Source: Biomaibacter acetigenes (GTDB lineage: Bacteria; Bacillota; Thermosediminibacteria; Thermosediminibacterales; Tepidanaerobacteraceae). Taken from it: a stretch of 64,000 nucleotides of DNA. The notes under the pieces were generated by a model, which worked only from the letters and a program-made list of their open reading frames with translations, was not told where the DNA came from and made no database searches. The stretch covers positions 1,054,001 to 1,118,000 of the forward strand of contig NZ_CP033169.1 of the NCBI RefSeq assembly GCF_003691585.1. Direction: 5' to 3'. Of this stretch, positions 2,823 to 18,885 are shown piece after piece. Position 1 is the first letter of the stretch, and every line of letters begins with the position of its first letter. The position numbers and the translations under genes were made by a program.

Positions 2823-2846
2823 AAAATGTGAGAAGAGGTGAAGCCT

Positions 2847-5800
2847 ATGAAAGACCGCCTTATCCAGCTAATAAAGTCAGAAGACAAGAAAAATCCCTAC
2901 ACGGATGACCAGCTGGCCGGCATATTGGGTACCCGGCGGGATGAGGTAACCATCTTGCGGGGAGAACTGGGCATCCCGGACTCCAGGGAAAGGAAAAAAC
3001 CCTATCTTGTAAATGCTTTAAAGGAATTGATATCCCAGAATCCTAAAATTTCCGACAGGGAATTGACACGAGTCATCAACCAGAAAGGATTTAATGTATC
3101 CAGATTTATAATTTCCCAGTTGAGAAAAGAAATAGTGGGAAATATGTCTATGCAAAATGTATCTCGCATTGTCGCCGGTGCTGCAGATACCACAAACCAT
3201 GAAAATGTTGAAAAAACAAGCGGTCATGGAAAAACCAATAACGGCATGCCATCCAGAGCTTTTGAAAGAATCATAGGATTTGACGGCAGTCTAAAGCCGC
3301 AGATTCAGCAGGCAAAGGCAGCAATTTTATATCCTCCCCATGGCCTCCATACCCTGATTCTGGGTCCTACCGGTGTCGGCAAAAGCAACCTGGCCGAAGC
3401 CATGTACAATTTTGCTCTTGAAGCAGGCAAACTTCCGCAAGGTGCTCCTTTTATTATCTTTAACTGCGCCGATTATGCCGAAAATCCCCAGCTTCTTTTG
3501 TCACAGCTTTTCGGCCATGCCAAAGGGGCATATACCGGTGCGGATACCGCTAAAGAAGGCCTTGTAGAGAAAGCCAACGGAGGTATACTTTTCTTGGATG
3601 AGGTCCACCGCCTGCCTCCCGAAGGGCAGGAACTGCTTTACTATTTGATGGATAAGGGCAAATTCCGCCGCCTTGGGGAGACGGAAACCATAAGGTCTGC
3701 CAGTGTCATGATCATTGCCGCCACTACGGAAGATATAGAATCTTCGCTTCTTCTAACTTTCCGAAGAAGAATCCCTATGATTATAGAACTTCCGCCATTA
3801 TCTGCACGTCCCCTGTCGGAAAGATTCAATATAATTAAGGAATTTTTCGGCAAAGAAACCGATAGAATAGGCACTTCCATAAAAGTGACCCAGGAAGCGC
3901 TGAGGGCATTGCTGCTTTATGATTGCCCGGGAAATATCGGTCAGCTTCGAAGCGATATACAGGTAGCCTGCGCCAGGGGATTTTTAACTTATGTGGGCGG
4001 CCAGCAGCAAGTGATTGAGATAGATCTAATAGACCTGCCGATACATGCTCGAAGGGGTCTGCTCAAGATACAGAACCGAAACCCCGAAGCGGAAATTTTC
4101 CTAAAGGGCGATTTTATAGTAAGCCCTGGTCAAATGGAAACAAGAGTTATGCCAAAAGAGGATTTATATATATTGCCCCAGGAAATCTATCAATATATAG
4201 AGGAAAAATATCAGGAACTCCAGGAGCAGGGATTGAGCCAGGAAGTCATAAACAGAGTAATCGGAGGAGAACTGGAAATAAGATTCCAGCAGCTGGTCAA
4301 GCAGTTTGAGACAAACCGTCAGTTGTTGGGAAAACAGGAGCTTATAGGAATAGTAGGGAAAAAAGTTGTTGACATGGCAGAGCAGATGGTCAAGATTGCC
4401 GAGAAAAAACTTGGCAAAATGGATAATCACCTGTTTTACTGCCTGGCCATCCATTTGAGCGCAACACTGGAACGATTGCAGCATAACAAGCCTATAATAA
4501 ATCCCCAGCTTGAAAAGGTTAAAAATGAATACAGGCTGGAATATAAAGTGGCAAAAGAAATGGTGGAAGCCGTTGAAAAAACGGCAGATTATAAAATGCC
4601 CGAAGATGAAATCGGATTTGTGGCCATGTATCTTCGCACCATAACCCATCCGGTTGATGTAAAGAAAGGTCGTGTGGGAGTAGTGGTCCTTACCCACGGC
4701 CATGTGGCCCAGGGTATGGCGGAGGTGGCAAACAGGCTTCTGGGCGTAAACCATGCGGTAGGAATAGAAATGTCACTGGATGAAAAGCCGGAGTCTGCCC
4801 TTCAAAAAGCCATGGAAGTAGTGAGAAAGATCGATGAGGGCAAAGGTGTGCTGCTTTTAGTAGACATGGGTTCCCTTATCACATTCGGAGAAATCATTAC
4901 TCAGAAAACCGGTATACAGACCAAAACCGTAGGCCGGGTTGACACCATCATGGTCCTCGAAGCCGTGCGCAGAGCCATCCTTCCAGACACCAATCTGGAC
5001 GAAATTGTGGCAAATATTGATAAAGATAAGGTGGGGCTGGGAAGGTTTATCCCCGTGGAAAACTCAGAAAATGAGGGTAAAAAAGAGCATAAAAAAGCGA
5101 TAGTTACTCTGTGTATTACTGGCGAAGGAACCGCCATAAAATTGAAAAAACTTATTGAAAAAATGATTCCGGACATTTCTGAAAGCGCAGAAGTAATTCC
5201 TGTTGGTATAATTGGTGGGGAAGATATTTCAAAAAGAATAGAAAAAATAAAAACAGAAAAACAAGTGGCAGTTATCGTTGGAACTGTTGACCCGGAACAA
5301 AATGATATTCCTTTTATCTCTGTTGAAGAATTGATAAGTGGAACAGCAGTAAATAAGATCAGAAATATCCTTAAATTAAAAAATCAGATAAAAACAGGTC
5401 AGATTCAAAAACCTATGGTATTGCCGCTAGCAGAAGTTTTATTTGAGGATTTGATTCTTGTTCAACCGGATTTTACTACAAAAAATGACATTATAGATAG
5501 TCTTGCTGAACTATTGGTCAAGAAAGATTATGTTAACGATAAATATTTACTGGATGTATATAAGCGAGAAGTGATGGGCCCTACGCTTATAAAAAATCAT
5601 ATTGCTATACCCCATGGCAATTCGGAAAACGTTTTAAAACCTGCCATTGCTATGGCATTTTTGAAAGAACCGGTCGCATGGTCGGCAGATAAAGGGTCAG
5701 ATATTGTTTTTATGCTGGCATTAAAAGAGGATTCAAAAGAAATATTGAATGAATTATTTAATGTGATAAATGATGAGGATTTCATTTATAAATTAATGAG

Positions 5801-5861
5801 GTTAAAGAACGGCAATGAAATCAAAAAGGCTTTATTAGAATATATTTTAAGCCGAAACTAA
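2847..5861 (+). CDS. LevR/MtlR-type sigma-54 activator with PTS regulatory domains
   Basis: A 1004-residue activator of sigma-54 RNA polymerase whose activity is set by PTS phosphorylation. In order: an N-terminal helix-turn-helix region (about 1-110), an AAA+ domain with Walker [10 protein letters not shown] (173-181), GAYTGAD (227-233, Tyr in place of Phe in the GAFTGA loop) and Walker B ending in Asp251-Glu252, a PTS regulation domain (about 430-600), an EIIA-mannose-like domain with His617 in the THG motif, an EIIB-galactitol-like segment with Cys756, and a C-terminal EIIA-fructose-like domain with His923. In classic LevR the last part is a second PRD; here an EIIA takes that place. The start is ATG 2847: AGAGGTG at 2834-2840 is its ribosome site, and the in-frame GTG at 2838 lies inside that site. 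The gene is followed by a sigma-54 promoter and PTS genes. Confidence 0.92.
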
Positions 5862-5875
5862 ACCTGCCATTTATA

Positions 5876-5892
5876 TTGGTACGATAATTGCT
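5876..5892 (+). promoter_or_regulatory. Sigma-54 (-24/-12) promoter of the PTS operon
   Basis: TTGGTACG, four bases, TTGCT. The GG pair (5878-5879) and GC pair (5890-5891) are ten bases apart, the fixed sigma-54 spacing. One mismatch to YTGGCACGRNNNTTGCW (T for C). The predicted transcript starts near 5903 and has a leader of about 125 bases. Its activator should be the LevR-like protein just upstream. A 12-base palindrome GGAAAATTTTCC lies in the leader at 5998-6009. Confidence 0.85.
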
Positions 5893-6031
5893 TGATAATT
5901 AATAGTGAAATAAAAATTATACGCCAAATCTGTATTTTTCTATATTTACTTTTACACCAATTCTCCAAGTCAAGTTCAGTGTTCAAGATAATATAGCGGA
6001 AAATTTTCCACAATTTGAAGGAGGCTGAATG

Positions 6032-6532
6032 ATGCCAGAATTAAACTTTTTAAATCCGGAACTAATACAAATCGATGCAGAAGCTGATGATAAAGAGGGA
6101 ATAATTAAGAAGCTGGCAAATTTATTAATTTCAAAAGGATATGCAAAAGAGAGTTATTTGGAAGCTATTTTAGAGAGAGAAAAAGTTTTTCCTACCGGCC
6201 TTCCAACAGAAGGCGTTGGTGTGGCTATTCCTCATGCGGACATCAAACATGTTATAAAACCCGCAATAGCGGTGGCAATACTCAAACATCCGGTGCAATT
6301 CAATGTAATGGGGAACCCTGAGGAAAAAGTAAGCGTTAAAATCATTTTTATGCTGGCTATAACAGATCCGAATATCCAATTAAAACTGCTACAGGATTTG
6401 ATGGAAATATTTCAGAATAAACAGCTCTTATTAAAGCTTGCTGTTTCGAGAGATGTTGATACCGTTTTAAAGCTGATGACGTTGAAAGAAAATTATAATA
6501 CCGAACAAATAGATGTGGCTGGAAACTATTAA
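6032..6532 (+). CDS. PTS galactitol/fructose-type EIIA component
   Basis: A cytoplasmic phosphocarrier of about 166 residues in the EIIA-fructose/galactitol/Ntr family. It takes phosphate from HPr on His68 (motif VAIPHAD) and passes it to the IIB encoded two genes on. The fold marks are LLISKGYAKESYLEAILERE in the N-half and a hydrophobic VKIIFMLAI strand. Two ATGs lie side by side at 6029 and 6032; the ribosome site GAAGGAGG at 6017-6024 is 4 and 7 bases from them, which favours 6032. First gene after the sigma-54 promoter. The same kind of domain ends the activator upstream, so both may compete for or report on the same phosphate flow (inference). Confidence 0.9.
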   Translation: MPELNFLNPELIQIDAEADDKEGIIKKLANLLISKGYAKESYLEAILEREKVFPTGLPTEGVGVAIPHADIKHVIKPAIAVAILKHPVQFNVMGNPEEKVSVKIIFMLAITDPNIQLKLLQDLMEIFQNKQLLLKLAVSRDVDTVLKLMTLKENYNTEQIDVAGNY

Positions 6533-6629: not shown

Positions 6630-8000
6630 ATGAGTATTAAAGCGGCGGTTGATTTTGTTTTAGGTTTAGGTCCCTCGGTCATGCTACCAATTATTTTAAC
6701 GATTTTTGGTATGGTTCTGGGACAGGGATTTAAAAAATCTTTCAGAGCAGGTCTTACCATCGGTGTAGGTTTTGTAGGAATTAATCTGGTAATCGGTTTG
6801 CTTATGAACGCTTTAGGCCCCGCAGCTCAAGCTTTGGTTAAATCTCTGGGTTTAAATCTTGATGTTCTTGATGTGGGTTGGCCTATTGGCGCCGCTATTT
6901 CTTTTGGAACACCTGTTGCGCCGTTGTTGATACCAATCGTCCTCGTATTAAATGTTATACTGTTAGCTGTTAATTTTACAAAAACAATGGATGTAGATTT
7001 GTGGAATTACTGGCATTTTATATTCGCCGGATCAATTGCATACTATGCTTCCCACAACATGTTTTTTGGCATATTAGTGGGTTGTTTGACGGCAATAGTC
7101 ATTTTCAAACTGGCGGACTGGACCGCACCGGTTCTGGAGCATCACTTCGGCCTGCCCGGTGTGTCATTACCTCATACTGAAACTGTAGGTTGGGCTCCGC
7201 TGATGTATGTATTGGAAAAAATAGAAAGTAAAATACCGGGATTGAATAATATTCATGCCAGCCCGGAGGATGTACAGAAGAGATTTGGTCTTTTCGGCGA
7301 ACCACTTGTAATGGGTCTTATCCTTGGTTTAATTATGGGTGTATTAGGGAAATATGACCTCAAAGGTATATTGACTTTGGGTGTTCAGATGGCATCGGTG
7401 TTGGTTCTGATGCCAAAGATGGTGGCTATCTTGATGGAAGGGCTCATACCTCTGTCTGAAGGCGCCCGCGAATTTATCCAGAAGAGATTCCCGGGGAAAG
7501 AAGTATATATTGGATTGGATGCGGCCATTGTTATAGGACATCCTGCCGGTATGGCGGTTGCATTGATAATGGTTCCGATAACGATCTTCATGGCGGTCAT
7601 ACTGCCATATAACCGGATGCTTCCGTTTGCCGATCTTGCTGTTTTACCGTTCATAGTAATCTGGGCTACTGCCGTATCCAGAGGTAACATCGTAAAAGGT
7701 ATTCTAAATTCGATCATTTGCATGGCTGTGATATTCTTCATTGCCACAAACTTTGCGGAACTTGCGACCACCATGGGCAAAGCGGTCGGTTTTCAATTCC
7801 CCGAAGGAGCCAATATGATAAGCGGTATCGATCTAGGTTCCCATGTTGTGCCGTGGATTATTATCAGAATACTGCAGCCTGACAATCCTGCAATCTTTGT
7901 TGCAGCCATAGCTTGTGCCATCGGCTACGCCGCCTTGTGGTGGTGGGTAAGAAACGACATCAAGAAACAATACGCCGAAGAAATTAATGCAAGTAAATAA
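6630..8000 (+). CDS. PTS galactitol-type EIIC permease
   Basis: A 456-residue integral membrane protein of the GatC family, with about ten to twelve hydrophobic segments. It carries the sugar or polyol across the membrane while IIB phosphorylates it. Family marks: an N-terminal GPSVMLPIILTIFGMVLG segment, the loop GWPIGAAISFGTP and the motif SHNMFFG, plus GLDAAIVIGHPAGMA in the C-half. Length equals E. coli GatC (about 450). Ribosome site AAGGAGGG precedes the ATG. It lies between IIA and IIB, the usual order being A-B-C or A-C-B. GatC-type permeases serve galactitol, arabitol, tetritols and others, so the name does not fix the substrate. Confidence 0.92.
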   Translation: MSIKAAVDFVLGLGPSVMLPIILTIFGMVLGQGFKKSFRAGLTIGVGFVGINLVIGLLMNALGPAAQALVKSLGLNLDVLDVGWPIGAAISFGTPVAPLLIPIVLVLNVILLAVNFTKTMDVDLWNYWHFIFAGSIAYYASHNMFFGILVGCLTAIVIFKLADWTAPVLEHHFGLPGVSLPHTETVGWAPLMYVLEKIESKIPGLNNIHASPEDVQKRFGLFGEPLVMGLILGLIMGVLGKYDLKGILTLGVQMASVLVLMPKMVAILMEGLIPLSEGAREFIQKRFPGKEVYIGLDAAIVIGHPAGMAVALIMVPITIFMAVILPYNRMLPFADLAVLPFIVIWATAVSRGNIVKGILNSIICMAVIFFIATNFAELATTMGKAVGFQFPEGANMISGIDLGSHVVPWIIIRILQPDNPAIFVAAIACAIGYAALWWWVRNDIKKQYAEEINASK

Positions 8001-8037: not shown

Positions 8038-8325
8038 ATGGCTAAAAAGAGGATTTTAGTTGCATGCGGAACAGGAATCGCAACTTCGACTATGGTCGCG
8101 AAAAAAGTAGAGGAGGCATTAAAATCAAGAGGTTTTGATGTTGTCGTAGAACAGTGCAAAGCTGCTGAAGCCCCCTCAAAAGCTTCAAATTATGACCTTA
8201 TAGTCAGCACGACTACTTTGCAAAATTGCGGTTCCACGCCTGTAATCAGAAGTATAGCATTTCTATCCGGTGTCGGTGTCGATAAAGATATCGAAAAAAT
8301 TGTGGCGGCTTTAGGAGATAAGTGA
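8038..8325 (+). CDS. PTS galactitol-type EIIB component
   Basis: A 95-residue IIB of the GatB family. The phosphocysteine is Cys10 in the loop ILVACGTGIATST, followed by the usual Rossmann-like fold and the C-terminal FLSGVGVDKDIEKIV. Start is ATG 8038, seven bases after GGAGGT (8025-8030); an in-frame TTG at 8023 overlaps that ribosome site and is rejected. It receives phosphate from IIA His68 and hands it to the sugar in IIC. A Cys-less relative lies at 15038, in the same gene run. The gene is followed by a very strong perfect hairpin. Confidence 0.92.
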   Translation: MAKKRILVACGTGIATSTMVAKKVEEALKSRGFDVVVEQCKAAEAPSKASNYDLIVSTTTLQNCGSTPVIRSIAFLSGVGVDKDIEKIVAALGDK

Positions 8326-8332
8326 TTTTAAG

Positions 8333-8376
8333 AAGCAAATTCACTCTAGCGACAATAAGCTAGAGTGAATTTGCTT
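8333..8376 (+). repeat. Perfect 18-bp inverted repeat after the PTS genes
   Basis: Arms at 8333-8350 and 8359-8376 are exact complements (AAGCAAATTCACTCTAGC) around an 8-base loop. No run of T follows, so an intrinsic terminator is doubtful. It would protect or process the 3' end of the IIA-IIC-IIB message and so set PTS genes apart from the enzyme genes. Confidence 0.85.
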
Positions 8377-8418
8377 AGTTTCATTGTTTATGAAAAAACT
8401 CCACTGAGGAGGGTGCCT

Positions 8419-8885
8419 TTGAAGGTTTATAAGTATAAATACTCCTACTATCTGGTGTCACAGTTGATTCCGGCAATATTGATAATCGGCGTTTTTATAT
8501 GGTCTATCTATCAGCGAATATATTTTCCGGAAAATATATTGTACAGATTACTGGTCATAGTAATGCCCGTAGTTATAATATCTACTTTCGTCAGTTTAAA
8601 TACTCCTCACAAGGTGATAATAGATGGTAATATAATACATTTTTACAGTTTTGGAATGAAACATTCGTATGACCTGAAGAAGGTAAAAAAATCGATGTTA
8701 AGGAATTTATTTTTAGCGACAAATATCTGGTCAGGATAGGAGAACCCAGCGTTCTAAGCGGACGTTATTGGATAAGCAGCAACATTATTGGTCATGAAGA
8801 ACTTTTAAATTTTTTCAAAGAAAAAGAAAAAAGTGTTGATATAAAAAATTATTACATTGCAAAAAAAACAAGGAACAAAAAATAA
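8419..8885 (+). pseudogene. Membrane protein with PH-like domain, split by a frameshift at A7
   Basis: A TTG start at 8419 follows GAGGAGGG (8406-8413). The first frame encodes two hydrophobic segments (around YYLVSQLIPAILIIGVFIW and LLVIVMPVVIIS) and the start of a bacterial PH-like domain, then stops at 8739. In the -1 frame the same domain carries on smoothly from the codons after a run of seven A at 8685-8691 (IDVKEFIFSDKYLVRIGEP, then GRYWISS) to a stop at 8883-8885, giving about 155 residues. The zero-frame reading at the run is gtA AAA AAA, a classic -1 slippery heptamer. It may be a true frameshift mutation, a programmed slip, or a sequencing error. Function is unknown. It sits between PTS and dehydrogenase genes. 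Confidence 0.6.
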
Positions 8886-13225: not shown

Positions 13226-14047
13226 TTGAGTTCGCTAAAAGAAAAAAATAATGAACTTTCGACCACAGCCCGCACCATCCGGCGGCACATCGTCGAGATG
13301 ACTGCCGAAGCGGGTTCCGGCCATCCGGGAGGGTCCCTCTCGTGTTCCGATATCCTGACAGCCCTGTATTTTAATGTACTCCGAGTGGACCCAAAACGTC
13401 CCGCATGGTCGGAAAGAGACCGTTTCATACTATCAAAAGGGCATGCTGCCCCTGCTCTTTATGCGGTGCTGGCAGAAAAAGGATATTTTCCCAAAGAAGA
13501 ACTCATGAAACTCAGAAAGACCGGTGCCATGCTCCAGGGACATCCCGACATGAAAGGAACGCCGGGCCTTGACATGACCACCGGTTCCCTGGGCCAGGGG
13601 TTATCCGCCGCCAATGGAATGGCCCTGGCAGGGAAGCTGGACAAAAAGGACTACAGAGTATATGTACTGCTGGGAGATGGAGAAACAGAAGAAGGCCAGG
13701 TATGGGAAGCAGCCATGGCATCGGCCCACTATAAACTGGACAACCTCACGGCCTTTGTAGACCACAACGGCCTGCAGATAGACGGCCCCATCACCCAGGT
13801 CATGTCACCGGAGAAAATACAGGACAAATTCAAAGCCTTCGGCTGGCACGTAATCGACATAGACGGCCATGACTTTAATCAAATACTTGAGGCCGTAGAA
13901 GAAGCCAAAAACACCAAAGATAAGCCCACAGTAATCGTTGCCAAAACGGTAAAGGGCAAAGGCGTGCCCTTTATGGAAAACATAGTGGACTGGCACGGAA
14001 AAGCACCTTCTAAAGAGCAAGCTGAAGAAGCATTAAAAGCACTTTAG
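13226..14047 (+). CDS. Transketolase, N-terminal subunit
   Basis: 273 residues forming the thiamine-diphosphate-binding half of a split transketolase. Seen are the [13 protein letters not shown] phosphate-side motif, [17 protein letters not shown], and the TPP/Mg motif [17 protein letters not shown]. It works only with the next gene's product. The pair moves two-carbon units between ketose and aldose phosphates, joining pentose, tetrose and triose phosphates. The start is TTG 13226 after GGGGTGAT. GC at third positions rises sharply here against the AT-rich HAD gene just before, a possible sign that this block has a different history. Stop to next start is 44 bases. Confidence 0.95.
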
Positions 14048-14091
14048 TTGTATCTTATGAATAGAAGAAAAAATAGTATGGAGGGATATCA

Positions 14092-15033
14092 ATGCCGAAA
14101 GTTGCCACTCGTGAAGCCTACGGCCAGGCTCTGGCGGAGCTTGGCGAAGAGATAAAGGATATAGTGGTCCTGGATGCAGACCTTTCAAAATCCACCAAGA
14201 CCAGCGTATTTGCCAAGAAATTTCCCGAGAGATTTTTCAACATGGGTATAGCCGAACAGAATCTAATGGGCACCGCAGCAGGTCTTGCCACCTGCGGCAA
14301 GATACCCTTTGCCAGCACATTTGCCATATTTGCCGCCGGCAGAGCCTTTGAACAGGTAAGAAACTCCATATGCTATCCGCAGTTGAACGTAAAAATAGCC
14401 GCCACCCATGCGGGCATAACCGTGGGTGAAGACGGAGCCACCCACCAATCGATAGAAGATATAGCCCTTATGAGAGCAATTCCCCACATGACAGTCATAA
14501 ACCCCGCCGATGCCGAAGAAGCAAAACAGGCCGTGAGAGCCGCAGCCCTTCATAAGGGGCCAGTATACCTCAGATTTGGCCGCCATCCGGTAGAAACCAT
14601 CTTTGATGAAAATTATAAATTTGAAATAGGGAAAGGAGTAATCCTGAAAGAAGGAAAAGATGTAGCTATCATCGCTACAGGAGTCATGGTAGGCGAAGCT
14701 TTAAAGGCCGCAAAAATCCTGGCCGGAGAAGGTATAAACGCCATGGTGGTGAACATATCCACCATAAAACCCATTGATAAAGAAGTAATTCTAAAAGCTG
14801 CAGGGTGCGGCGCCATAGTCACCGCCGAAGAACACAACATCATTGGAGGTCTGGGCAGCGCTGTGGCCGAAGTGCTGGCAGAAGAAAAGCCCACCCCCAT
14901 AAAGAGGATAGGCATAGCCGACGAGTTCGGCCAGTCGGGAAACCCCGATGAACTCCTCAAGATATACCATCTGACTGCGGAGGATATAGCAAAAGCGGCC
15001 AAAAAAATAATAAAAATAAAAACAAGGAGCTGA
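14092..15033 (+). CDS. Transketolase, C-terminal subunit
   Basis: 313 residues covering the pyrimidine-binding and C-terminal domains of a split transketolase. Marks are ADLSKSTKT, the NMGIAEQNLMGTAAGLA motif with the Glu that activates the cofactor, and GEDGATHQSIEDIALMR with a catalytic His. It pairs with the N-terminal subunit upstream. Within this polyol operon it could consume erythrose 4-phosphate or a pentulose phosphate. Ribosome site GGAGGG precedes the ATG. The following small IIB-like gene starts four bases after its stop. Confidence 0.95.
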   Translation: MPKVATREAYGQALAELGEEIKDIVVLDADLSKSTKTSVFAKKFPERFFNMGIAEQNLMGTAAGLATCGKIPFASTFAIFAAGRAFEQVRNSICYPQLNVKIAATHAGITVGEDGATHQSIEDIALMRAIPHMTVINPADAEEAKQAVRAAALHKGPVYLRFGRHPVETIFDENYKFEIGKGVILKEGKDVAIIATGVMVGEALKAAKILAGEGINAMVVNISTIKPIDKEVILKAAGCGAIVTAEEHNIIGGLGSAVAEVLAEEKPTPIKRIGIADEFGQSGNPDELLKIYHLTAEDIAKAAKKIIKIKTRS

Positions 15034-15037
15034 AAAA

Positions 15038-15325
15038 ATGAAAATTCTTATATTGGGTGGAACATCGAATACTAAAGCAGATAAACTTTCCAAACAATTA
15101 ATCGATGGTTGCAGGAAAAAAGGAGTGGAAGTAGAAATAATAACAGCAAACATCTTTACAAGTGATTTGAAAGCAATTGAACAAAAAGAAAAACCTGATG
15201 TGATTGTGCTGGTAGGTACAAAAAAGCTGGACACGACACTTCCAGTCATCAATGGGCTTCCTCTGGTATATCCATGGATGGGGGCTGACAAAGTCATTGA
15301 TGAAGTAGTAAAATATAACAAATGA
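15038..15325 (+). CDS. GatB-like EIIB-fold protein without the phosphocysteine
   Basis: A 95-residue protein that aligns over its whole length with the galactitol-type IIB at 8038: ILILGGTSNT against ILVACGTGIA, a middle DVIVLVGTKK against DLIVSTTTLQ, and LPLVYPWMGADKVIDEVV against the IIB tail. At the catalytic Cys position there is Gly, so it cannot carry the phosphate. It may have become a regulatory or scaffold subunit, perhaps sensing the IIA or the activator's EIIA-like domain (inference). It sits between transketolase and an FGGY kinase, with the kinase start close behind. Confidence 0.6.
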   Translation: MKILILGGTSNTKADKLSKQLIDGCRKKGVEVEIITANIFTSDLKAIEQKEKPDVIVLVGTKKLDTTLPVINGLPLVYPWMGADKVIDEVVKYNK

Positions 15326-15345
15326 ACTTTTTAGGAGAGTTTTAT

Positions 15346-16797
15346 ATGATCGTCATCGGCATTGATGTCGGCACCCAGGGAATAAGGACTATAGCTGTGA
15401 ATGAAAATGGGAAAAAGATTTGCATAGCCCATGAAGAGCTGCAGCCTTCCATGAGCAGTAACAGCGGATGGAAGGAGCAGAACCCCGGCGATTGGAAGAG
15501 GGTATTTAGAACTTGTTTTAAAAAGCTGGTGGAGGGAATAAAAAGCCAGGGTCATTCGTTATCCGAAGTTATGGCCATTTCCGTTGATGGGACTTCGGGT
15601 ACCATTTTGCCCGTTGATAAAGAGAAAAAACCTCTCATGAATGCTATCATGTACAATGATTCCCGAGCCGGGCAAGAAACCGGTAAGATAAAGGCGATAG
15701 CTGCCGGTTTTTCGGATAAAGTGGGTTACAGCTTCAACTCGTCCTTTGCGCTGCCCAAAATACTATGGATTAAGGAAAACTTGCCGGAAGTTTACCAAAA
15801 TACGTGGAAATTCATTCATCAGACCGATTTTATTATAGGGCTTTTGACAGGAATTTATGATATAACTGACCATTCTAATGCCCTGAAGACCGGATTTGAC
15901 CTGGTGGACTATAAATGGCCGGAATCTATAATCGAAAAATTGGATCTTGATATGGGAAAATTTTCGCAGGTTGTCAGGCCGGGGGATAAGATTTCGAATA
16001 TAAGCAGAGATTTTGCGGGAGAATCCGGGCTTTCCGCCGATACAATAGTGGTGGCCGGAATGACCGACGGGTGTGCAGGCCAGGTAGCATCTGGGGCTGT
16101 TAAGGAAGGAACATGGAATTCCATTCTGGGGACGACGCTGGTGGTAAAGGGCATTACCAAAAATTTAATCAAGGACAGGCAGGGCAGGATTTATTCCCAC
16201 CTTCATCCCGAGGGCTTCTGGATGCCCGGCGGGGCCAGCAACACGGGTGGAGAGTGTTTGGAAAAGGTGTTCCCGGATATAGACTATAAGGAGTGGGATC
16301 TGAAGGCCGAGAGGTATTTTCCCACAAATCTAATAGTATACCCTCTAGTGAAGAAAGGAGAAAGATTTCCTTTCATAAGACCTGAAGCCGAAGGGTTTAT
16401 CGATGGGAAACCCAAAGATGAAGTTGAACTTTATGCGGGATATATTGAAGGCGTGGGTCTTTTCGAAAGGTTATGCTACGACACGCTATCTGATTTAGGG
16501 GCAACTGTATCCGATGAAATTTATGTCACCGGTGGCGGCACAAAGAGCAGGATATGGATGAAGCTTAGAGCCAGCATTCTAAATAAAACCCTCCTGATGC
16601 CGGAAATTAGCGACCCATGTATGGGAAGTGCCGTAATGGCCGCATCTAAGACCATTTACAACAATGTGATGGAAGCAGCAGCAAATATGGTAAAGCCGGG
16701 AGAAATCATTGCTCCGGTCCCGGAATTTGTGAAAATTTATGAGCAAAAGTATGGTGACTTTAGAAACTTGATGAGGAGAAAAGGGTATATAGATTAA
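15346..16797 (+). CDS. FGGY-family carbohydrate kinase (D-ribulokinase-like)
   Basis: 483 residues. IGIDVGTQGIRT begins domain 1; the sugar/catalytic motif is GMTDGCAGQ with the catalytic Asp; domain 2 shows the adenosine loop YVTGGGTKSRIWM. The motif LGTTLVVKG and the YSHLHPEG / PGGASNTGG pair are those I associate with the D-ribulose kinase (SePSK/AtXK-1-like) branch. Start is ATG 15346, six bases after AGGAGAG (15333-15339); an ATG at 15322 overlaps the previous gene and has no ribosome site. It could feed a pentulose phosphate into the transketolase encoded two genes upstream. The FGGY kinase at 839 is a separate subfamily. Confidence 0.85.
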   Translation: MIVIGIDVGTQGIRTIAVNENGKKICIAHEELQPSMSSNSGWKEQNPGDWKRVFRTCFKKLVEGIKSQGHSLSEVMAISVDGTSGTILPVDKEKKPLMNAIMYNDSRAGQETGKIKAIAAGFSDKVGYSFNSSFALPKILWIKENLPEVYQNTWKFIHQTDFIIGLLTGIYDITDHSNALKTGFDLVDYKWPESIIEKLDLDMGKFSQVVRPGDKISNISRDFAGESGLSADTIVVAGMTDGCAGQVASGAVKEGTWNSILGTTLVVKGITKNLIKDRQGRIYSHLHPEGFWMPGGASNTGGECLEKVFPDIDYKEWDLKAERYFPTNLIVYPLVKKGERFPFIRPEAEGFIDGKPKDEVELYAGYIEGVGLFERLCYDTLSDLGATVSDEIYVTGGGTKSRIWMKLRASILNKTLLMPEISDPCMGSAVMAASKTIYNNVMEAAANMVKPGEIIAPVPEFVKIYEQKYGDFRNLMRRKGYID

Positions 16798-16829
16798 AAA
16801 GACTTAAAATCAAGTTGCAGGAGGTCTTT

Positions 16830-18167
16830 ATGAGCATATTTAAAGCCTGTGATATCAGGGGAACCTATGGTAAAGATTTAACCGCAGAAGATGCCTTCAA
16901 TATAGGTCGTGCTTTTGGTACAATAATTGAAGGCAGGAGTGTGGTGGTGGGAGGGGATGTAAGGCTGAGCACACCGGCTTTGAAACAGGAGCTGATAAGG
17001 GGACTTTTCCTGACCGGCTGTAAGGTTACTGATATAGGAACTTTACCTACTCCGGCATTTTATTACTCCAAGCGCCATCTCGGTACCTATGCCGGAGTCA
17101 TGGTTACCGCATCCCACAATCCGGCCCGGTATAACGGTTTTAAGTTCACCTTCGGAGAATTGCCGGTGCAGGAAAAAGATATAGAGTATATTGAGAAGTT
17201 GACCAAAAGCAATGATTACAGGTCAGGGAACGGTTACATCGAAAATCATCCCATGCTTGAGGAGTACCAAAAATATATTCGCAGCCTTTTTAAACCTATC
17301 TCGGGGAAAATTAAAGTAGTTATCGATGCCGGCAACGGTGTTTGTGGTCCTGTAGCTATTAAACTCTTTGAAAGTCTTGGATATGAGGTGGTAACTCTTT
17401 TCTGCGAGCCCGACGGAAATTTCCCTAACCGTGAGCCAAACCCCGCCGTAGCGGAAAATTTGCGGCATTTACAGGAGAAAGTAATTGAAACAAATGCGGA
17501 TCTTGGCATCGCATTCGATGGCGATGGAGACCGGGTGGCTTTTGTGGATGAGAAGGGGGAGATTCTTTCCAGCGAAAGAGGCATAATAATCTTTGCACGA
17601 TATCTTTTTGAAAAATATGGACCCGGGAAAGTAGTGTATGATCACAAGTGCTCTACTATAGTAGAAAAAGAGATTTCTAAAGCCGGCGGTGAGGCTATTC
17701 GGGAAAAATCAGGACATGCCTTCATAAAGAGAAATTTTCTTTTGCAGGATGCCGTAATGGCCGGCGAAATCAGCGGCCACTATTTTTTTAAAGAACTGGG
17801 TGGTGATGACGGTATCTATGCGGCCCTGCTCATGGGGGAATTGCTGGATGAAAAGAAAGTAAAACTGTCGCAGCTTTCATCCCAGATACCCGATTATTAT
17901 ATAACCCCCGATATTCGGGTGCCCTATCCTTATGATGATAAAGAAGAACTTTTAAAAAGCGTCAAGGAAAAGTTTAAGGAATATCCCATCGATACGATGG
18001 ATGGAGTGAGGGCCATTTTCCCCAACGGCTGGGGCCTCATCAGGATTTCCGTCACAGAGCCGGTGATTACTATGAGGTTTGAAGGAGACACACCGGAGAA
18101 CCTTGCTGCCATAAAAGAACACTTTTTGGAGGCCGTACCCAAAATTAAAACACTCATCAAAGATTGA
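16830..18167 (+). CDS. Phosphomannomutase/phosphoglucomutase
   Basis: 445 residues of the alpha-D-phosphohexomutase family. It starts with FKACDIRGTYG, carries the phosphoserine loop VTASHNPARYNGFK, the metal loop FDGDGDRVAF, the sugar loop GEISGHYFF and the phosphate-binding C-terminal segment RFEGDT. It interconverts hexose 1- and 6-phosphates. ATG 16830 is chosen because AGGAGGT lies just before it; an upstream in-frame TTG at 16815 overlaps that site. A paralog lies on the other strand at 41839-43194. Its role in this operon is unclear, perhaps entry of a hexose 1-phosphate. Confidence 0.9.
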   Translation: MSIFKACDIRGTYGKDLTAEDAFNIGRAFGTIIEGRSVVVGGDVRLSTPALKQELIRGLFLTGCKVTDIGTLPTPAFYYSKRHLGTYAGVMVTASHNPARYNGFKFTFGELPVQEKDIEYIEKLTKSNDYRSGNGYIENHPMLEEYQKYIRSLFKPISGKIKVVIDAGNGVCGPVAIKLFESLGYEVVTLFCEPDGNFPNREPNPAVAENLRHLQEKVIETNADLGIAFDGDGDRVAFVDEKGEILSSERGIIIFARYLFEKYGPGKVVYDHKCSTIVEKEISKAGGEAIREKSGHAFIKRNFLLQDAVMAGEISGHYFFKELGGDDGIYAALLMGELLDEKKVKLSQLSSQIPDYYITPDIRVPYPYDDKEELLKSVKEKFKEYPIDTMDGVRAIFPNGWGLIRISVTEPVITMRFEGDTPENLAAIKEHFLEAVPKIKTLIKD

Positions 18168-18261: not shown

Positions 18262-18885
18262 ATGACAAAGTTTGAAATAAAGCAGGAAGTAGTAAAGATA
18301 GCCAAAAAAGCCGATGAGATGGAACTTTGCCGGCATAAGTCCGGGAACTTCAGCATGATAGACAGGAAAGAAGGTCTGATATACATAACTCCTTCAGGTA
18401 TATCAAGAGAAGACCTCACACCTGAAAAGATAATCGTAGTGGACCTTGATGGCAATATAGTCGAAGGAACCCTTCACCCATCCATAGAAACTTCCATGCA
18501 CATAACCGCATATAAAATAAAGCCAGAGGCCAGGGGCGTGGCCCATACCCATTCCAGATATTCCACCATTTTTGCCTGTATGGGAAAGGAAATCCTTCCG
18601 GTCAGTGCCGAAGCAATTTTATACGGAGGAAAACCTGTAAAGGTGGCCGAGTTTGCACCTCCCGGAAGTAAGGAACTGGCCCGGACCATAATTGAACCGA
18701 TGAAGGATTCTGATGTATGTCTTTTAAAATACCATGGAGTAATTGCCGTCGGCGAAGACCTGGAAAAGGCGCTCATAAAGCTAATATATGTGGAAGAAGT
18801 GGCATTTTTGTATTATCATATGCTGACTCTGGGGCAGAAAGAATTCATGCCTTTAGAAATTTTTAATGCGATGTTAAATGGCTGA
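18262..18885 (+). CDS. Class II aldolase (L-fuculose/L-ribulose-phosphate type)
   Basis: 207 residues of the class II aldolase/adducin family (FucA/AraD). Zinc ligands are His pair in VAHTHSRYS and a third His in LKYHGVIAVG; the catalytic Glu is in the ETSMHITAY stretch, and the phosphate-binding SGNFS and TPSG loops lie in the N-half. The reaction is either retro-aldol cleavage of a ketose 1-phosphate to DHAP plus an aldehyde, or 4-epimerisation. It closes the catabolic run started by the PTS, after a 94-base gap with ribosome site GAGGAGG. Which ketose phosphate is used cannot be told. Confidence 0.88.
   Translation: MTKFEIKQEVVKIAKKADEMELCRHKSGNFSMIDRKEGLIYITPSGISREDLTPEKIIVVDLDGNIVEGTLHPSIETSMHITAYKIKPEARGVAHTHSRYSTIFACMGKEILPVSAEAILYGGKPVKVAEFAPPGSKELARTIIEPMKDSDVCLLKYHGVIAVGEDLEKALIKLIYVEEVAFLYYHMLTLGQKEFMPLEIFNAMLNG

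Follow-up and report, generated by a model that had tools for sequence, protein, structure and literature searches.

A predicted pseudo-IIB in a galactitol-type PTS operon of Biomaibacter acetigenes

The window, the whole 64,000-nucleotide stretch of Biomaibacter acetigenes DNA analysed here, carries a plus-strand gene run in which a LevR-type activator gene is followed by genes for a galactitol (GAT)-type phosphotransferase system (PTS) and for several enzymes (Table 1). Within this run lies the gene for a Cys-less IIB-like protein, which starts 4 bp past the gene for the C-terminal half of a transketolase; the likely start of an FGGY-family kinase lies 20 bp downstream of it. Its reading frame is uninterrupted, in agreement with the sequence-only reading of this DNA, which had described an intact gene of 95 codons inside a gene run. 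Orthologues are encoded in G009, a genome of the same family, and G001, of the same genus (92% and 91% identical, respectively). The IIA and IIC genes share the gene run with the Cys-less gene, as they also do in G009, where the PTS operon likewise stands under a LevR-type sigma-54 activator, and an enzyme I N-terminal domain scores above its family cut-off in the same genome as the window, making a working PTS likely. Between the PTS genes and the enzyme genes, a small membrane-protein-like ORF (from 8365 to 8739, continuing to about 8850) appears frameshifted: its G009 homologue (L017:10692-11159, minus strand) is 155 residues long, and the C-terminal part of that homologue continues in another frame of the window.

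Table 1. Genes and sites of the gene run, in positions of the window
Feature	Position	Strand	Basis
LevR-type sigma-54 activator; candidate docking partner	2838..5861	+	Pfam: AAA, PRD, EIIA-Man, C-terminal EIIA_2 (Mtl-like)
Sigma-54-type promoter-like site ahead of the PTS genes	5877..5892	+	10/11 consensus positions matched
IIA, PTS_EIIA_2 type; candidate docking partner	6029..6532	+	PTS_EIIA_2, 129.2 bits
IIC, GAT family permease	6630..8000	+	EIIC-GAT, 310.8 bits
Active GatB-type IIB with Cys10	8038..8325	+	PTS_IIB, 61.5 bits; PRK10310 (galactitol IIB), 2.5e-16, under the PRK10310 cut-off
Split transketolase pair, upstream of the Cys-less gene	13226..15033	+	ORFs; name from the sequence-only reading, without family search
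Cys-less Gat-type IIB-like protein, 95 aa	15038..15325	+	Intact ORF, ATG to TGA
Remodelled phosphocysteine loop of the Cys-less protein, residues 7-15 (GGTSNTKAD; family CGTGIATST)	15056..15082	+	Alignment A2
FGGY-family carbohydrate kinase, constant 3' neighbour	15322..16797, likely start 15346	+	FGGY_N and FGGY_C (Pfam)
Phosphomannomutase/phosphoglucosamine-mutase-like enzyme	16815..18167	+	TIGR03990, 382.5 bits, under the cut-off of 439
Class II aldolase	18262..18885	+	Aldolase_II, 159.9 bits

The Cys-less protein escapes the standard family models. Pfam and NCBIfam return nothing over any cut-off and no match to a IIB model at E up to 1, and a PF02302 search of its own genome, with ten matches at E up to 10, does not list it. 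PHROGs gives no significant match (nothing below E 0.13), and phmmer against PDB sequences only weak, partial matches, none of them clear. Direct comparison places it in the IIB family. In a single BLASTP comparison, residues 2-91 align with residues 5-89 of the active GatB at 25% identity (E = 3e-4), with Gly7 opposite Cys10, which bears out the earlier description of an end-to-end alignment with glycine in the cysteine position. As a single query, the protein retrieves Cys-bearing IIBs from other genomes with E-values down to 9.6e-7 per genome. A profile was built from 34 rows of alignment A2, leaving out the orthologue group; this alignment holds 37 sequences picked from distinct IIB-like stretches, a few of which are short at the start (L083 begins past the Cys column). 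Against it the Cys-less protein scores 39.8 bits, compared with at most 12.6 bits for 5000 composition-preserving shuffles, which excludes a chance resemblance. This profile is the main reason to regard both the IIB fold and the homology as well supported.

Structure prediction, which had been proposed as a check on the IIB assignment, points the same way. An AlphaFold2 model computed with the family alignment reaches a mean pLDDT of 92.9, and its best VIA-align row is the Staphylococcus GatB 5gqs (Z 11.0, 90 residues, 2.4 A). Also among the top five are 3czc, a IIB, at Z 10.3, and the EIIB domains of two regulators, AtxA (Z 10.0) and MgaSpn (Z 9.6); a response regulator at Z 10.2 falls inside the same band. 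Of the top five Foldseek rows, three are IIBs and the other two are flavodoxins. A model computed from the three orthologues alone has a pLDDT of 80.6 and the main elements in the same order. Its structural matches are less specific: Argonaute MID domains rank first, and receiver domains and IIB-like proteins are mixed among the top VIA-align rows at Z 8-9.5.

Inside this predicted fold the catalytic centre has been rewritten. Glycine occupies the phosphocysteine position (residue 7) in all three orthologues, and cysteine occupies it in each of the 33 family rows with a letter there. Of the nine residues of the family loop, only Gly8 and Thr9 are left. Two further segments on the active-site side have changed together with the Cys loop: at family T59/T60, Thr59 (91% in the family) is replaced by Val, and at family T79-G80 the Thr-Gly pair (85% and 97%) is replaced by Pro-Trp. 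D54, P69, G73 and G82 are retained. The cysteine is also kept in the seven top-ranked PF02302 matches of the same genome and in all 41 other distinct, non-orthologous IIB-like stretches from the fetched loci, a set assembled by similarity searches and thus no census of IIBs at large. Cys-keeping homologues had been named in advance as evidence against the sequence-only reading, and they are indeed the rule outside the orthologue group; the Cys-less form is conserved as well, although only within its three members. Judged by sequence and model, the active site is lost inside a retained IIB fold, and the protein can be called a pseudo-IIB, with the fold of a Gat-type PTS IIB but predicted to be no longer able to carry phosphate on a cysteine.

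Two readings would give the remodelled loop a chemistry of its own. Phosphate transfer might continue through another residue, with Ser10, Thr9, Asp15 and Cys25 as candidates, all four being invariant in the three orthologues. This is very improbable: the residues that hold the phosphate in the IIB loop are mostly replaced, the operon already encodes a Cys-bearing IIB, and Cys25 lies off the catalytic place, at a position in which several Cys-bearing GatBs have a cysteine as well. Alternatively, the GGTSNTKAD loop and a VYPWMG loop may form a new pocket, turning the protein into a sensor of a pathway sugar phosphate or another anion. The joint change of all three segments and the invariance of seven of the nine loop positions among the orthologues favour such a sensor, but three sequences this close cannot demonstrate a conserved pocket, and we regard it as unlikely.

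Genomic neighborhood analysis identifies the FGGY kinase as the constant partner. In all three carriers the Cys-less gene is followed directly by the kinase gene and then by the mutase and the aldolase. Upstream, the transketolase C-terminal half is visible in G001, whose contig ends just upstream of the Cys-less gene (any link to an activator gene would lie beyond it), whereas in G009 the transketolase pair is absent and a HAD gene directly precedes the Cys-less gene. The two transketolase genes have G+C contents of 0.52 and 0.49, compared with 0.36 for the Cys-less gene and 0.33-0.45 for the other measured operon genes. The pair lies outside the conserved unit and resembles either an insertion or a loss confined to one lineage. 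The expectation that the Cys-less form would be conserved beside transketolase genes therefore fails at one of the three orthologous loci.

A related operon occurs in G395, a genome of another family, in the order activator, IIC, aldolase, Cys-bearing IIB, IIA, small ORF, kinase and mutase. Identities to the window proteins are 67% for the mutase, 61% for the kinase, 54% for the activator, 40% for IIC, 38% for IIA and 31% for the aldolase. Kinase homologues 49% and 47% identical to that of the window are encoded in G026 and G163, respectively, where the Cys-less protein finds no match at E up to 10. As read from ORF translations, the FGGY kinase and mutase homologues of these two genomes (loci L040 and L048) lie near ABC-transporter-like genes, not PTS genes; the catabolic module seems to switch transporter type.

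These neighbourhoods bear on the main rival to a role at the activator, namely that the Cys-less protein serves the downstream FGGY kinase as an accessory or allosteric subunit, its IIB fold binding the kinase and coupling kinase activity to the state of the PTS or of a sugar phosphate. The orthologous kinase adjoins the Cys-less gene in three of three carriers, and in G395 one operon holds both the kinase orthologue and the nearest Cys-bearing relative. Since the kinase, and not the activator, is the constant neighbour, it is an equally natural partner. In G395, however, IIA and another ORF separate the IIB from the kinase, and the lack of any match to the Cys-less protein in G026 and G163, which have their own kinase homologues, indicates that kinases of this type can do without it. 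Kinase control is tentative, yet nearly as likely as docking on the activator.

The same G395 operon holds the closest relative of the Cys-less protein beyond its orthologues, a Cys-bearing IIB (pairwise E = 2e-10). The Cys-less group is sister to this protein with bootstrap/SH-aLRT values of 94/93 in a first tree and 80/96 in a second. Of 44 distinct IIB-like stretches, 42 went into the first tree; the two left out scored low and lay within longer frames, of 279 and 294 residues. From the second tree, L081 was also omitted for its very long branch. The Cys-less branch is itself very long, and the sister grouping may be a product of long-branch attraction. A recent duplication of the active GatB was rejected: the clade uniting the Cys-less protein with that GatB and its G009 orthologue fails the AU test (p 0.009), long branches being in play here too. 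The same test allows placement within a wider GatB clade (p 0.22). The suggestion that the protein is a dead paralogue of the GatB encoded at 8038 is accordingly not upheld. Trees and synteny, read with these long branches in mind, make it likely that the protein began as a kinase-linked IIB and lost its phosphosite after a second IIB had displaced it.

Such a history raises the possibility that the gene is a decaying remnant of the displaced IIB. The catalytic residue was lost after the apparent displacement, and the distribution is narrow: 3 of the 26 genomes of the class carry the gene, and a sample of 398 genomes from the phylum has it only in G000 and G001 (G009, 68% complete, lies outside this sample). 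Decay is nonetheless a decidedly unlikely account. The gene is intact in all three genomes, and for the window and G001 copies, the sole pair with unsaturated dS, dN is 0.051 and dS 0.592, a dN/dS of 0.087. The three Cys-less proteins are 88-92% identical to one another, compared with 76-81% for the adjoining kinase; being more conserved than the kinase and having a low dN/dS both speak against decay. The coding-sequence comparison supports the view that purifying selection has kept the gene in this PTS operon, which begins with a LevR-like activator gene. Carriage on plasmids was rejected, 72,556 plasmid records containing no match to the protein at E up to 0.01.

The activator itself offers a candidate target, the EIIA_2 domain that stands at its C-terminus instead of PRD2. 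A sigma-54-like site lies between the activator gene and the first PTS gene in the window (10/11), in G009 (10/11) and in G395 (11/11); the window as a whole contains five such sites against 1.79 expected. Another of these sites is found just upstream of the activator (2806-2821). Between the Cys-less protein and the activator's own EIIB-like region there is no BLASTP similarity, only a weak profile match (E 0.054). For the regulator MtlR, a work cited in PMC6148471 reportedly describes, according to its title, activation in which the EIIB domain of MtlA sequesters MtlR at the membrane. Passages of PMC10864463 describe phosphorylation and inactivation of LevR by P~EIIB, and some clostridial LevR-like regulators with an EIIA-Mtl-like domain in the place of PRD2. 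Contact between transporter and MtlR, in the relevant part of PMC6148471, is made mainly via EIIA- and EIIB-like domains. Taken together, the reported inactivation by P~EIIB and the contacts between EIIA and EIIB domains suggest that a IIB surface unable to hold phosphate could occupy an EIIA-like domain or a free IIA and keep phospho-IIB away.

A regulatory role for the Cys-less protein is plausible, and the reading we place first, at a probability of about 35%, is that the protein acts as a non-phosphorylatable IIB mimic and docks on a partner of the EIIA type, for example the activator's EIIA-Mtl-like domain. The second, Cys-bearing GatB would have taken over phosphoryl transfer, and the older kinase-linked IIB, freed from catalysis, would have been kept for its binding surface. 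Docked on the activator's C-terminal EIIA-Mtl-like domain or on the stand-alone IIA, the pseudo-IIB would compete with phospho-IIB; inhibitory phosphorylation of the activator would be blocked, and the operon would stay on once expressed. In a more speculative form, the stand-alone pseudo-IIB might be a diffusible, permanently ‘unphosphorylated’ IIB signal that shields the EIIA-like domain of the LevR-type activator from phospho-IIB, creating positive feedback in the operon. If this is true, such a signal would be the PTS counterpart of pseudokinase-type regulation.

PTS IIB proteins serve both as transport parts and as signals to regulators, and a free IIB that has the fold but no phosphosite would demonstrate that the loss of catalysis in one gene can separate signalling from transport. 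Such a protein would offer a simple test case with four components: the 95-residue protein itself, the activator, IIA and the kinase. At the level of titles and the opening lines of abstracts, in a literature coverage outside which most subscription journals fall, no description of a stand-alone Cys-less IIB was found.

Among known proteins, the closest model is the galactitol-type PTS IIB (GatB; PDB 1tvm, 5gqs), which the Cys-less protein resembles in fold, length, end-to-end alignment and the placement of its gene in a GAT-type PTS operon. Unlike GatB, it has no phosphorylatable cysteine, has lost most of the phosphate loop and is missed by PF02302 and NCBIfam. The G395 IIB (L047:13127-13450) is its nearest relative and comes from a like operon, in which the kinase, mutase and activator are all orthologous to those of the window; this IIB keeps the cysteine, however, and is the sole IIB found in that operon stretch. 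A different likeness links the Cys-less protein to the EIIB-Gat-like domains of MtlR/LevR, AtxA and Mga, in which, according to sections of PMC8560693 and PMC10864463, a IIB fold serves regulation and not sugar transport. Several of these regulatory EIIBs keep a cysteine for which the same sections report a role (C419 in MtlR, C402 in AtxA, C682 in CelR). Moreover, the EIIBs of MtlR/LevR, AtxA and Mga are domains of large DNA-binding regulators, whereas the Cys-less protein is a free 95-residue ORF product with neither DNA-binding nor PRD domains.
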